Part shown: positions 190 to 5,636 of the stretch, in pieces | Position numbering within the stretch: position 1 is the stretch's first letter | Layout: each line of letters opens with the position of its first letter | Assembly: GCA_030628225.1 (NCBI GenBank) | Contig: DAOVRJ010000166.1 | Coordinates: 1 to 5,736 of the forward strand | DNA length: 5,736 nucleotides | DNA from: Candidatus Zixiibacteriota bacterium | GTDB lineage: Bacteria > SM23-81 | Direction: 5' to 3' | Notes under the pieces: generated by a model | Databases searched by the model: none | Told to the model about the DNA's origin: nothing | What the model saw: the letters and a program-made list of their open reading frames with translations, nothing else | Translations under genes and position numbers: made by a program

Positions 190-1377
190 CTATGACAAGA
201 AACGATATGTTTTTGCTTTGGGCATCTCCTTAACTCGTTTGAAAAACTCTGTTTCTGTAATCTCCGTCGGCCATTCTAATCGTGCAAAGAAATGAAACTG
301 ATTGCTTTCGGTTTTGCGATAGTCAACTGCTTTGAGGGCAATTAAGTAGCTAATATCACGGCTTAAAGCTTTGTTAGGATTCTTCAATCCGGTATACAGC
401 AAACGCGTCTTGTCAAAAAGGTCCTCCAAGGTGAGATAATCAGTCTCTAAGAGCAACTTAAGAATTGCAATGTGTCTCTCCATTATTACACGTTTCCTTT
501 TACTTCTGAGTCTATTGAAAAGATCATACATTAGATTTAAGAACAGTGCTTTGGATACGTTCTTTTTGATTTCTTCGAAAAGTCGTCTACACTGGAGCTC
601 AATTCCTTTCAACCCAAAGAGCAAAAAAGAAGTTAAATCATAATCATTAGCCCGCACTTCCGCCAATGATTCTAAATAGCTGTTTTTCTCCTCATAATAG
701 TAGTTCGACATAGCAATAAATAGCGTGTCACGAAGACCTACACGCTGAAGCATGAGTGCTTCTACTGCACGGGCTGTCCTTCCATTTCCATCGAGAAACG
801 GGTGAATTGCGGCGAAGTGGTGATGCAAGGCCAGCGCTTGAATCAGAGGATCATGTTCTTGAAACTCTTTCTTAATAGCTCTACATAATTCATTGAACGC
901 TCTTTCACATTCAGTACCCCCTTCAACTCCCCGATGTCGTGGTGTACCATAAGTAACATTCTGATCACGACCACGGAGTTCTCCAGGAGCGCAATGGTCA
1001 TCGTCGGCATCCGCAATAATCAACCGATGAATCCCCCGAATGAGGTCGGCGTCAATAGGCCGATCCATTGGCAATTTTGCAATCCAGCGATAAGCTCGGA
1101 CAGCTGCAGCTGCTTGTCGCTGGGAACGCGTGTAAAGCTTCTGAGGAAATTCATCAAGTGCCGCGTCTAACTCTTTTTCGGTGAAATCAGCACCTTCTAT
1201 GCGGGATGTACCAGCAACCTCTCTCTTGAGCTGGACAATTTGAAGCTTGTCTGCCCAACTCCTCTGGTAAGGCATAGCAGTCAAAGAGAGCACAACTGCT
1301 TTAGCAGATGCGAGCTGAGCACTTATCGCAACCGGATCGTATTTAATCCAATTTTGTGGAAACTTATAGCGAATCAT
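190..1377 (-). CDS. fic: Class II Fic family protein (AMP-transferase)
   Basis: This 395-residue protein belongs to the Fic/DOC family, which transfers AMP (sometimes another phosphate-containing group) from a nucleotide to a hydroxyl side chain of a target protein in the cytoplasm. The signature HPFLDGNGRTAR spans residues 192-203: catalytic His192, Asp196 for Mg2+, Gly197-Asn198-Gly199 as the phosphate anion hole, and Arg200 and Arg203. All key residues are present, so it should be active. Upstream, TSRIEG (57-62) matches the inhibitory motif (S/T)xxxE(G/N). Glu61 would clamp Arg203, which makes this a class II enzyme with its antitoxin helix built in at the N-terminus; accordingly no separate antitoxin gene is adjacent. 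The flap region is near PGELRGRDQN (131-140). Residues about 276-395 look like a winged-helix segment, as in many Fic_N-Fic-wHTH proteins. The ATG at 1377-1375 has no Shine-Dalgarno but sits at the predicted transcription start. G+C is clearly lower than in the neighbouring gene. The target protein is unknown. Confidence 0.95.
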   Translation of the reverse strand: MIRYKFPQNWIKYDPVAISAQLASAKAVVLSLTAMPYQRSWADKLQIVQLKREVAGTSRIEGADFTEKELDAALDEFPQKLYTRSQRQAAAAVRAYRWIAKLPMDRPIDADLIRGIHRLIIADADDDHCAPGELRGRDQNVTYGTPRHRGVEGGTECERAFNELCRAIKKEFQEHDPLIQALALHHHFAAIHPFLDGNGRTARAVEALMLQRVGLRDTLFIAMSNYYYEEKNSYLESLAEVRANDYDLTSFLLFGLKGIELQCRRLFEEIKKNVSKALFLNLMYDLFNRLRSKRKRVIMERHIAILKLLLETDYLTLEDLFDKTRLLYTGLKNPNKALSRDISYLIALKAVDYRKTESNQFHFFARLEWPTEITETEFFKRVKEMPKAKTYRFLS

Positions 1378-1689: not shown

Positions 1690-1719
1690 TTGACAGACCC
1701 CACCATTTTGTGTTAAGAT
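1690..1719 (+). promoter_or_regulatory. Promoter of the large phosphoesterase gene
   Basis: A perfect TTGACA (1690-1695) is followed after 18 bases by TAAGAT (1714-1719, four of six bases of TATAAT). Transcription would begin near 1726, leaving a leader of about 55 bases before the GTG at 1782. The -10 box is imperfect and the spacer one base longer than ideal, so basal activity may be moderate. Confidence 0.6.
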
Positions 1720-1770: not shown

Positions 1771-1777
1771 AAGGGGG
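1771..1777 (+). promoter_or_regulatory. Ribosome binding site selecting a GTG start
   Basis: AAGGGGG lies four bases before GTG at 1782-1784. No in-frame ATG is better placed, and starting here gives a complete signal peptide (positive n-region, hydrophobic core, AxA cleavage site). The GTG start is therefore well supported. Confidence 0.8.
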
Positions 1778-1781
1778 TATT

Positions 1782-4700
1782 GTGAATAAATTATTTGTCT
1801 GGTCACTGTTAGCTGCACTCCTGGTGACCTTTCTGCCGGGCCCGGCTCTGGCCGCCTACGAGGTCATCGTGGACGACGAGGATGGTGCGCCCGCATTCAC
1901 CACGGTGGGCACCTGGGGGGTAAGTGGCTATGGAAACAACTACCCGCCACCTAATGGCAACAAACATTTCGCATATCATGGAGATGGCTCGGGTACGGCC
2001 ACCTGGACCACTTCTCTAGACTATGATGGGGACTACTCGGTTTGGTTCTGGGTGAACAACTCCACCTACGCTAACCCCGCCGAGTATATCATCCAACACG
2101 CCGGTGGAATCGACACCGTCTACAAGAGCCAGTACAAGGTTGGCGATGGCTGGCATTCTCTGGACACATTGAACTTCATCTCATCAGCCACGGTCACAGT
2201 GACCGATACATTCCCTGCGGGTACCTACGTGGTCGCCGACGCCATCCGCTGGCTCTATCTCACCCCCACCCACTCCATCAGCGGCTCGGTCAGCTTCAGC
2301 GACGGCTCCGCAATCGACGTGGCCACTATCAAGGCCTACGAGCACGACACCTCCAACCTGGTGGGTCAGGACGAGACCGTCCCCGGCGGGGGCAGCTACT
2401 CCATCGACAACCTGTTCGATGGTGCCTACGACCTGGTCTTCACCTCGGTGCGCTACGACACGGCGGCCATCGACAGCGTGGCCATCGACGGGGGCGACGT
2501 GACCGGCCAGGACGTGGTCATGCAGCGCTCCGCCGGCCCCTTCTACACCATCGGTGGCACGGTGACCTTCGACGACGGCTCTCCCACGGCCATCGCCGAG
2601 ATCACCGCCTACGAGAACGACACTCAGTATGTCCTGGACCGGGACAGCACCGCCGCCGGAGGGGGATCCTACACGCTAATTGATTTCCCCGACGGGACCT
2701 ACGACATCGTGGTGCGGGCCGACGGCTACGCCAGCGACGCCTCCACCCTGGCCAACACGGTCGTTTCCGGCTCCCCTGTGACCGGCGCCGACGTGACCCT
2801 GCACAAGACCTTCACATTCGTCTTCTGGACCGACACCCACGTGGGCGACGCCGGGGGCACCTCGGGAACCACAGATGCCCGCAACGACATCAACACCCTC
2901 ACGGACATCGACTTCGTCTTCCACAGCGGGGACATCACCGAGTTCGGGGACAACTGGATGTACGACCAGTACAAGAACATCGCCGACGGCCTAATCTTTC
3001 CCCGCTACGAGGTGCCCGGCAACCACGACACCAAGTGGCCCGAGGCCGGCCTGGAGAAGTTCCGGGAGGTCTGCGGACCGATCTATTTCTCCTTCGACCA
3101 CAAGGGATACCACTTTATCGGCCTCAACGTGGGCACCTGGATGCGCGGCGAGGGCAGCATCGACGTGACCCAGCTGGAGTGGCTGAAGGCCGATCTGGCT
3201 GCCCTGGCACCGGAGATGCCCATCTTCGTCTTCTGGCACCATCCGGCCTGTAATAACTTTTTCGCCAAAGCAAATGAGTCGGCGCTGCTGGACATTCTCA
3301 AGCCCTACCGGGTCGTACTGTGCTTAACGGGCCATGTGCACTCCAACCATCTCTATGACTTCGAGGGCATCGTGGGCATGGCCGGGGAGGCACCTTTCGG
3401 AACCGGCGCCGGGTATAGCATCATCCAGGTCACCGAAAGTCAGGTCACCGTCTCCAACCGGCCCAACGGCGGGCCCACACAGTCGCCGTGGGTCACCATA
3501 GATCTGCCGGTGCCCGCCTACCCCACCATCACCTTCTACCAGCCGGCAGAAGATGATCTGGTCTCCGGCACCATCAACATCGATGTGACCATCGCCGGCA
3601 ACCCGGAGACGGTCACCTCGGCCGAGTTCCAGTTCGATGACGACGGCTGGCAATCCATGAGCGGCATGGGCTCCAACTGGAGCGGATCGGGTTCCACCAC
3701 CGGCCTGATCAACGGCGCCCATCAGATCCAGGTAAAGATGAGCTCGGCCTCCCACACCTGGTACAAATCCACCAATGTCTATGTGGAGAACGGATATCCT
3801 AAAGCCGTCTGGCGGTATCAGGCCGCAGGCACCATCCAGTCCTCCCCGGCGACCGACGAGGGGCGGGTCTATTTCGGCACCCTGGAGGGAAAAGTCTACT
3901 GTCTGGACCTGTTCACCGGCCACAAGCTGTGGGATCATCAGACGGGCAGCGAGATCGTCTCCTCCCCCGCCGTGGAGGGCGACCTGGTGTTCATCGGCTC
4001 CTGCGACAGCACCCTCTACGCCCTGGATGTCTCCGATGGCTCTGTGGAGTGGACCTGCCCTGTGGGCGGGACGATCATGAGCCATCCCACCGTCGCCGAC
4101 AGCGTGGTCTACGTGGGCTGCGGCGATCACAAGCTGTACGCCGTGGACATGATCACCGGCAGCGAGCTGTGGTCCTTCTCCACCGGCGGGATGATCGAGA
4201 CCCGGCCTTTGGTGCATGACGGGGTGGTCTATTTCGGCAGCTGGGACTCCTACTTCTACGCCGTGGAGATCAGCACCCATACGCAATTGTGGCGCTGGCA
4301 GAGCCCCACAAACGCCAGCCGGTACTATAGCCCGGCGGCCGTCTGGCCGGCCTGGGCCAACAACAAGGTCTTCTTCACTTCCCCGGAGCGGTACATGATG
4401 GCTCTGGTGGATTCCACCGGATCCCCGGTGTGGCGCTCCAACACGCCGCAGTTCTACGACTCCATCGGCCGCTCGGCCTCCGGCGACAAGATCTACGGCC
4501 GGGCCCTGGACGGCAAATTGTACGCCTTCGACTCGGCCGCCTCCAGCCAGGTACAGCTCTGGGGCACCGACCAGGGCTGGGGCTGGGACCACGGGCCGTC
4601 CATGCCCATCGAGTACGGCGGGACTATCTACACCGGCTGCAAGCGCGGTTACGTCGTAGCGGTGAACCCCACTAACGGCGCCACCCTCTGGAAGTATCAG

Positions 4701-5153
4701 GTGGGCAAGGGGTACATGTTCACCACGGTGACCACCGGGAACGGGGCGGCCATCGCCGCCACCCAGGACGGCCGGATCTGCGCCGTGGTGGACGCCTCGG
4801 CGCCCTGGCCGATCGGTGACCTGGAGAGCCAGAAGGCCGGAGCGACTGAGATCAGACTGAGCTGGTCCCCCAAGGCCGGCGCCACCGAGTACCGCATCTT
4901 CCGCGGGGTGAACGATCCCGGTTTCACTCCCGGATCGCCCTATGACGCCACTCCCGACGTCTATTATCTGGACTCGTCGGCCGGCGACCCGGCCAACAAC
5001 TACTACTACGTGGTCCGGGCGGCCAACACATACGGCGAGAGCGATGACTCCAACCGGGTGGGGGAGTTCGATAGGAGCTTGCAAAATGCGAAGAGGGGTG
5101 GGAATCAGCGTGGATCGAAACGGGAACAGGTGGCCAGTGTGAAGAGAAGGTGA
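1782..5153 (+). CDS. Exported multidomain metallophosphoesterase with PQQ-type propeller
   Basis: This 1123-residue secreted or periplasmic protein is predicted to hydrolyse phosphoesters. Order of parts: signal peptide 1-24 (cleavage after Ala-Leu-Ala); golvesin C-terminal/Xly CBD-like beta domain about 25-161, ending in VVADAIRW; two tandem carboxypeptidase-regulatory-like beta domains about 164-250 and 254-342; calcineurin-like phosphoesterase about 345-560; Ig-like domain about 580-673; PQQ-like (BamB/quinoprotein type) beta-propeller about 674-1004; fibronectin type III about 1007-1096; basic tail 1097-1123. The phosphoesterase keeps every metal ligand motif: D351-x-H353, GD384, GN414-H415-D416, H486/H487, and GH518-x-H520, with His415 the expected proton donor. 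About eight blades can be read in the propeller from recurring 'YFG...LYALD...G..LW' patterns. Substrate is unknown; the propeller more likely mediates protein or glycan contacts than PQQ catalysis. It appears monocistronic, from the promoter at 1690 to a hairpin 14 bases after the stop. The phosphoesterase and propeller calls are firm; the flanking beta-domain names are less so. Confidence 0.93.
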   Translation: MNKLFVWSLLAALLVTFLPGPALAAYEVIVDDEDGAPAFTTVGTWGVSGYGNNYPPPNGNKHFAYHGDGSGTATWTTSLDYDGDYSVWFWVNNSTYANPAEYIIQHAGGIDTVYKSQYKVGDGWHSLDTLNFISSATVTVTDTFPAGTYVVADAIRWLYLTPTHSISGSVSFSDGSAIDVATIKAYEHDTSNLVGQDETVPGGGSYSIDNLFDGAYDLVFTSVRYDTAAIDSVAIDGGDVTGQDVVMQRSAGPFYTIGGTVTFDDGSPTAIAEITAYENDTQYVLDRDSTAAGGGSYTLIDFPDGTYDIVVRADGYASDASTLANTVVSGSPVTGADVTLHKTFTFVFWTDTHVGDAGGTSGTTDARNDINTLTDIDFVFHSGDITEFGDNWMYDQYKNIADGLIFPRYEVPGNHDTKWPEAGLEKFREVCGPIYFSFDHKGYHFIGLNVGTWMRGEGSIDVTQLEWLKADLAALAPEMPIFVFWHHPACNNFFAKANESALLDILKPYRVVLCLTGHVHSNHLYDFEGIVGMAGEAPFGTGAGYSIIQVTESQVTVSNRPNGGPTQSPWVTIDLPVPAYPTITFYQPAEDDLVSGTINIDVTIAGNPETVTSAEFQFDDDGWQSMSGMGSNWSGSGSTTGLINGAHQIQVKMSSASHTWYKSTNVYVENGYPKAVWRYQAAGTIQSSPATDEGRVYFGTLEGKVYCLDLFTGHKLWDHQTGSEIVSSPAVEGDLVFIGSCDSTLYALDVSDGSVEWTCPVGGTIMSHPTVADSVVYVGCGDHKLYAVDMITGSELWSFSTGGMIETRPLVHDGVVYFGSWDSYFYAVEISTHTQLWRWQSPTNASRYYSPAAVWPAWANNKVFFTSPERYMMALVDSTGSPVWRSNTPQFYDSIGRSASGDKIYGRALDGKLYAFDSAASSQVQLWGTDQGWGWDHGPSMPIEYGGTIYTGCKRGYVVAVNPTNGATLWKYQVGKGYMFTTVTTGNGAAIAATQDGRICAVVDASAPWPIGDLESQKAGATEIRLSWSPKAGATEYRIFRGVNDPGFTPGSPYDATPDVYYLDSSAGDPANNYYYVVRAANTYGESDDSNRVGEFDRSLQNAKRGGNQRGSKREQVASVKRR

Positions 5154-5166
5154 GTCTCCACATGTG

Positions 5167-5202
5167 CCGTCGGGTGGCCTCACCCGACGGTCCCTTACTT
5201 TT
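5167..5202 (+). terminator. Probable terminator of the phosphoesterase gene
   Basis: A perfect 10-bp G+C-rich stem (5167-5176 with 5181-5190) closes a four-base loop and begins 14 bases after the TGA at 5151-5153. The following stretch TCCCTTACTTTT is only partly T-rich, so termination may be incomplete. The stem belongs to the GTCGGGT palindrome family also seen at 5420-5443 and 5460-5481, so a dispersed repeat may have been recruited as the terminator. Confidence 0.65.
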
Positions 5203-5293: not shown

Positions 5294-5311
5294 ATGTCGT
5301 CTCTCTCTGTC

Positions 5312-5331
5312 ATTCCTGCGAATGCAGGAAT
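5312..5331. repeat. dRS3-like 20-bp inverted repeat, copy 1
   Basis: ATTCCTGC and GCAGGAAT pair perfectly around the loop GAAT and are preceded by TGTC. The layout matches the widespread intergenic palindromes of the form GTCATTCC...GGAAT, of which neisserial dRS3 (ATTCCC-N8-GGGAAT) is the named example. A second copy lies at 5606-5625. A run of six T follows four bases after the stem (5336-5341), so weak terminator activity on the plus strand is possible. Confidence 0.75.
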
Positions 5332-5347
5332 CTCGTTTTTTCCCCCT

Positions 5348-5568: not shown

Positions 5569-5605
5569 CTCAGAATGACAACAAAGAATATTCTCTCTTT
5601 ATGTC

Positions 5606-5625
5606 ATTCCCGTGCAAACGGGAAT
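5606..5625. repeat. dRS3-like 20-bp inverted repeat, copy 2
   Basis: ATTCCCGT and ACGGGAAT pair perfectly around a GCAA (GNRA-type) loop, matching the pattern ATTCCC-N8-GGGAAT exactly and preceded by TGTC like the copy at 5312-5331. Translated by chance, such elements yield the familiar false peptide FPCKRESR, seen in an open frame here. Confidence 0.8.
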
Positions 5626-5636
5626 CCAGAGGCTTA

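Follow-up and report, generated by a model that had tools for sequence, protein, structure and literature searches.

A phosphoesterase-propeller protein from a Zixibacteria-like genome ends in a candidate type IX secretion signal

The window analysed here is one whole contig of 5,736 bases holding two genes. One of them encodes a protein in which a calcineurin-like phosphoesterase is joined to an eight-bladed propeller, and which ends in an FN3-like domain with a conserved VGEFD box (FN3-VGEFD; Table 1). It is this terminal domain that most merits attention. We propose, with a probability of roughly 55%, that FN3-VGEFD is a new class of C-terminal signal for the type IX secretion system (T9SS), carried by dozens of cargo proteins in one family of Zixibacteria-like bacteria, standing beside the type A sorting domain and exchanged with it in the course of evolution.

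Table 1. Features of the window around the phosphoesterase-propeller gene
Feature	Residues	Position	Strand	Basis
Promoter-like site TTGACA-18-TAAGAT, TG ahead of the -10		1690..1719	+	consensus match only
Likely ribosome-binding site GGGGG before the GTG start		1773..1777	+	read directly
Whole coding sequence	1123 aa	1782..5153	+	GTG start, one ORF
Signal peptide	1-24	1782..1853	+	sequence pattern, MNKLFVWSLLAALLVTFLPGPALA-A at the N-terminus
Golvesin_C	28-156	1863..2249	+	PF25275, 57 bits, cut-off 31.6
Two CarboxypepD_reg-like domains	~164-248 and 256-340	2271..2801	+	PF13620, two stretches; first boundary estimated from the repeat, best Pfam stretch 256-340
Calcineurin-like phosphoesterase (Metallophos)	345-521	2814..3344	+	PF00149, 40 bits, cut-off 21.5
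Ig-like linker domain	~580-670	3519..3791	+	inferred from sequence; alignment gap against gut homologues
Eight-bladed PQQ-like propeller	674-1002	3801..4787	+	Pfam PQQ families from 674, fold, eight repeats
Terminal FN3-like domain and tail	from 1005	4794..5153	+	candidate T9SS C-terminal signal
VGEFD box	1093-1097	5058..5072	+	conserved 88-100% per position in 65 copies
Terminator-like hairpin downstream of the gene		5166..5191	+	consensus match only

A recurrent C-terminal domain

When the whole protein was used as a query, its own genome (G000) and G003, a genome of the same family, yielded dozens of hits confined to residues 1003-1105. A profile (A2) was built from 14 copies and used to collect the FN3-VGEFD domains, the surroundings of which were then fetched. 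A total of 72 copies were found in the two genomes, two of them running off a contig; among the other 70, whose ends can be read, 65 close the protein at its very C-terminus, a proportion which the profile, built from copies with known ends, may bias towards terminal ones, while internal copies from the sister family (f2) were still recovered. The terminal copies mostly end in a box resembling S-N-x-V-G-E-F-D-[RK]-x-L, usually followed by 7-26 residues, and at a mean identity of 39% this box is as strongly conserved as the FN3 core. Among the five remaining copies, four are followed by about 190 more residues, and one is an FN3 domain devoid of VGEFD ahead of a type A-like tail. The four extended copies, at loci L094, L099 and L128, have VGEYD- or AEYD-like boxes and represent a different arrangement.

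The bodies that precede FN3-VGEFD are diverse, and comprise gingipain-family C25 peptidases, an alpha-amylase, an endonuclease I, amidases, a subtilase, glycosidase-like proteins, FG-GAP proteins, PQQ propellers and Golvesin_C proteins; a signal peptide was recognised by a loose sequence pattern in 25 of 27 other FN3-VGEFD proteins. No Pfam or NCBIfam model names the tail, and the domain was absent from the plasmids and viral contigs searched. In the literature, the string VGEFD was encountered in one unrelated paper only.

Probable exchange with type A sorting domains

The genome that harbors the window encodes SprA (632 bits, cut-off 200) together with its neighbours, PorU (743 bits, cut-off 420) and PorV-family proteins. 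SprA and PorV-family proteins were also found in three relatives, PorU exceeded its cut-off in three of the four genomes, and PorV-family matches numbered 22-24 in the f1 genomes. Type A sorting-domain matches ranged from 64 to 144 per genome (G000, G003, G001 and G002), with 64 in the window's own genome. The co-occurrence of a T9SS core and type A domains in these Zixibacteria-like genomes is an observation in its own right: reviews describe the T9SS as specific to Bacteroidota, to our knowledge little is known of it outside that phylum, and our literature search found no paper joining Zixibacteria with T9SS or with sorting domains. Two features of a T9SS substrate are present in the window protein, namely an N-terminal signal peptide by sequence pattern and a genome encoding SprA, PorU and PorV.

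The sharpest sign of a link to the T9SS comes from homologous proteins, in which one kind of tail is found in place of the other. Locus L122 of G003, a propeller followed by FN3-VGEFD, and L011 of G001 are 70% identical over 514 aa and then diverge, the L011 sequence continuing into a type A tail. The C25 peptidase L087, from the window's own genome, is 50% identical to L188 over 1097 aa; its homologues in G001 and G002 are 50% identical up to the domain boundary and then continue into type A tails, and its paralogues in its own genome and in G003 (44% identical) are also type A-tailed. L089 matches L158 (55% over 398 aa) and a protein on contig 14 of G001 (55-56% over the whole body), and L093 is 50% identical to L156. 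The type A model TIGR04183 scored above its cut-off in all five f2 partners scanned, and matched neither four FN3-VGEFD proteins nor the window protein. The nearest FN3 copies in the sister family lack VGEFD, and most of them are then followed by a type A tail. These comparisons were first made with sequences retrieved through their type A tails, a possible selection bias; whole-genome searches with the bodies alone recovered the same type A partners, and the L122/L011 pair came from a search with the propeller and not with the tail.

FN3-VGEFD resembles the type A domain in being a terminal domain of about 100 residues; both are attached to similar kinds of secreted enzymes and occupy the same position in homologues. 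It differs in sequence, as the YPNPF motif and the terminal KM-L-LK motif that mark the type A tails found here are missing from it, and the two profiles share no similarity (hhalign probability 0.4%). The suggested equivalence of the two domains therefore stems from position and swapping, not from sequence. Among the FN3-VGEFD copies there was no match to any of the NCBIfam sorting models, through which the type C domains were also judged; the copies may therefore differ from the type B and type C domains as well. The existence of type A, B and C domains provides a precedent for one T9SS accepting several unrelated families (PMC10202324), and since the shuttle employed by type A is not that of type B (PMC12618676), a further class with a shuttle of its own would fit.

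One alternative explanation is that FN3-VGEFD is an ordinary extracellular module, serving for binding or as a spacer, and that the proteins which carry it are exported along a different path or remain periplasmic. The domain is indeed a recognisable relative of FN3, with solved FN3 structures among its relatives: while the copy in the window protein scores 16 bits against PF00041 (cut-off 25), seven of 14 copies match this model weakly and the homologous copy in L117 passes it with 26.6 bits. The FN3 copies of the sister family, which sit as plain spacers before a type A tail, and the dissimilarity between FN3-VGEFD and type A sequences also speak for an ordinary module. We nevertheless consider this unlikely, as a plain spacer would explain neither the terminal location of nearly all copies, nor a box placed after the last FN3 strand and conserved like the core of the fold, nor the homologues in which a type A tail takes over at the boundary, where the alignment stops. 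In the initial annotation, the beta domains were regarded as adhesive; this description was not supported, the FN3-like domain being a family-wide terminal module found in place of the type A sorting domain.

The recognition of unrelated sorting domains by a single T9SS is considered an open question (PMC10202324). Tail swaps between homologues that are 50-70% identical, in genomes possessing both kinds of tail, provide natural paired constructs for studying this recognition. If the proposed role is true, FN3-VGEFD would moreover hint at where dozens of secreted enzymes that lack annotation are located.

The phosphoesterase and the propeller

The unusual fusion of phosphoesterase and propeller in one chain, which the initial annotation had pointed out, was corroborated by the Pfam domains, a complete set of metal ligands and a folded propeller, and the proposed order, with the active site between the golvesin/regulatory domains and an Ig-propeller-FN3 half, was borne out by Pfam and sequence. 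The chain is also predicted to be exported, as had been suggested, on the basis of the pattern of its signal peptide.

Assignment of the enzyme to PF00149 is indicated by a score over the cut-off and by the presence of all phosphoesterase motifs (DTH 351, GDITE 383, GNHD 413, WHHP 485 and GHVH 517). The metal ligands D351, H353, D384, N414, H415, H486, H518 and H520 are all in place, and are invariant in five aligned sequences. Models of class III cyclic-nucleotide phosphodiesterases remained below their curated NCBIfam cut-offs (SpdA NF050112, 33 bits against 400; CpdA PRK11148, 23 against 225). The phosphodiesterases GpdQ, Rv0805 and SpdA share the calcineurin-like motifs and a partial sequence similarity with the window protein; this similarity, however, is weak and far under the family cut-offs, and no propeller is found in that class. 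A sequence search returned no close characterised phosphoesterase, the best solved relatives having an E value of 5.5e-5.

Folded by itself from a two-row alignment, the propeller yielded a model with a pLDDT of 81 and a pTM of 0.83. Its best fold match was the designed eight-bladed propeller Cake8 (314 of 320 residues aligned, 1.8 A, Z 41.3), and it also aligned to BamB structures. As this match agrees with eight repeats that can be read in the sequence, the modelled propeller is continuous, closed and eight-bladed, and the possibility of a discontinuous one, on which the fusion claim had been made to depend, did not materialise. The models for PQQ-dependent dehydrogenase (TIGR03075, 86 bits against 480) and BamB (TIGR03300, 140 against 285) scored under their curated cut-offs.

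A full-length structure model computed from two sequences had a pLDDT of 37 and was of low quality everywhere but in the propeller, so that it offers no guide to the packing of the phosphoesterase against the propeller. The Ig-like stretch had no Pfam match and no confident structure model, and a sequence search of the Golvesin_C region against solved structures produced chance matches only. A golvesin has been counted in a group of CBM6/35/36-like domains, two Bacteroides members of which were reported as lectins (PMC9166713); by analogy, the golvesin-type domain of the window protein might at best bind carbohydrates, which is to be treated as a lead.

Relatives of the full chain and of its core

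A scan of 84,980 genomes by short exact peptides, which distant relatives can escape, revealed one full-length relative, in candidate division Zixibacteria SM23_81 (LJUY01000007), filed by NCBI under Candidatus Zixiibacteriota of the FCB group. It appears to represent the same locus as in G003. As this homologue, which belongs to another genus, shares 76% identity along the entire chain, the architecture is not a product of chance. It displays the entire domain order including the FN3-VGEFD tail, and differs in its GHxH motif, which reads AHGH, and in its gene neighbours: trehalose-phosphate and transporter-like genes followed by a transposase-like gene, as read from the sequence. Directly downstream of the homologue (L002, 9908-10390) lies a probable REP-associated transposase, likewise read from the sequence. 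The full fusion was absent from the two other genomes of the phylum examined (G001 and G002, family f2).

Exported proteins combining a phosphoesterase with a propeller were also detected by translated search in three human gut contigs (MT835805, MT836367 and MT836053, deposited as phage records), and Pfam confirmed both domains in all three proteins. There, the pair makes up an exported protein of its own, 626 aa long. Similarly to the window protein, the gut proteins have a signal peptide and a phosphoesterase followed by a propeller; the two are colinear, with 31% identity in the core, and the metal ligands and the TKW signature are kept. In contrast, their chains contain no Golvesin_C, CarboxypepD_reg, Ig or FN3 domain. 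Golvesin_C is encoded instead by the gene directly upstream in the two gut contigs that were scanned, and since the single chain of the window corresponds here to neighbouring genes, a functional link between Golvesin_C and the phosphoesterase-propeller is suggested. The neighbours in the gut contigs comprise the golvesin-domain protein, a GT2 glycosyltransferase and DUF4922, and judging by gene content these contigs are probably Bacteroidota DNA. The records themselves (L211, L212 and L213) are unverified GenBank 'Bacteriophage sp.' entries with bacterial-looking gene clusters, and are likely mislabelled.

The initial annotation could match the combination of domains to no characterised protein. 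For the full architecture this stands, with SM23_81 as one further case; the phosphoesterase-propeller pair, on the other hand, is not unique to the window, its core being shared, by sequence comparison, with Bacteroidota-like gut DNA. No paper on this pair was found in a literature search.

An alignment of the core of the window protein, SM23_81 and the three gut proteins, equivalent to about three effective sequences since two gut proteins are mutually close and one is cut short, contains 121 invariant positions; the phosphoesterase accounts for 46 and the propeller for 73. The T417-K418-W419 signature after GNH is invariant in all five, and so are residues in blades 5 and 7 of the propeller (S850, A852, A853, W855, P856, P868, R870 and G932, G934, H937, P939, S940, M941). 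A core common to distant lineages and with invariant loops defines a putative enzyme group.

Proposed function

The domains, the metal ligands, the propeller fold, a core conserved in distant relatives and the replacement of the tail make it probable that the protein is a T9SS-exported binuclear-metal phosphoesterase, with the phosphoesterase and the eight-bladed propeller as its core and FN3-VGEFD as its export signal. The signal peptide would take the protein through Sec, after which FN3-VGEFD would deliver it via a SprA/PorV/PorU-type T9SS to the cell surface or to the outside. There, the enzyme would act on a phosphoester, which might belong to a phosphorylated glycan. Blades 5 and 7 may contribute to substrate presentation through their conserved loops. 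The propeller would be no passive anchor but a conserved partner to the active site. In this lineage, the core is preceded by the golvesin-type domain and the two CarboxypepD_reg spacers, has the Ig-like insert before the propeller, and is followed by FN3-VGEFD.

A different role, put forward in the initial annotation, is that of a phosphate-scavenging enzyme. A complete active site in a protein with an export signal is compatible with it, and known extracellular members of the calcineurin-like fold release phosphate. No phosphate-uptake gene, however, is located nearby, either in the window, where the neighbour is a Fic gene, or in SM23_81, and the golvesin protein, GT2 and DUF4922 next to the gut homologues point to glycans and not to phosphate starvation; phosphate scavenging is therefore doubtful. 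An additional scenario is that the propeller itself functions, either as a PQQ dehydrogenase or as an assembly factor of the BamB type, rendering the protein bifunctional. It draws on the BamB-like fold and on the partial matches to both models, but with the two scores so far under the curated cut-offs and a designed propeller as the best fold match, we view it as highly improbable.

The locus

The promoter-like site, one of three such consensus matches in the region against 1.2 expected, and the terminator-like hairpin flank the open reading frame, which would thus probably be transcribed as a single-gene unit. The second gene of the window (190-1377, minus strand) encodes an ordinary Fic-family protein with an HPFLDGNGR motif and a TSRIEG stretch, which presumably fits the class II inhibitory motif. 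The window also contains two palindromic GTCATTCC...GGAATC repeats (5300-5332 and 5594-5626), and GTCGGGT-like repeats occur at three places (5169, 5422 and 5461); all of these resemble REP-like intergenic elements.
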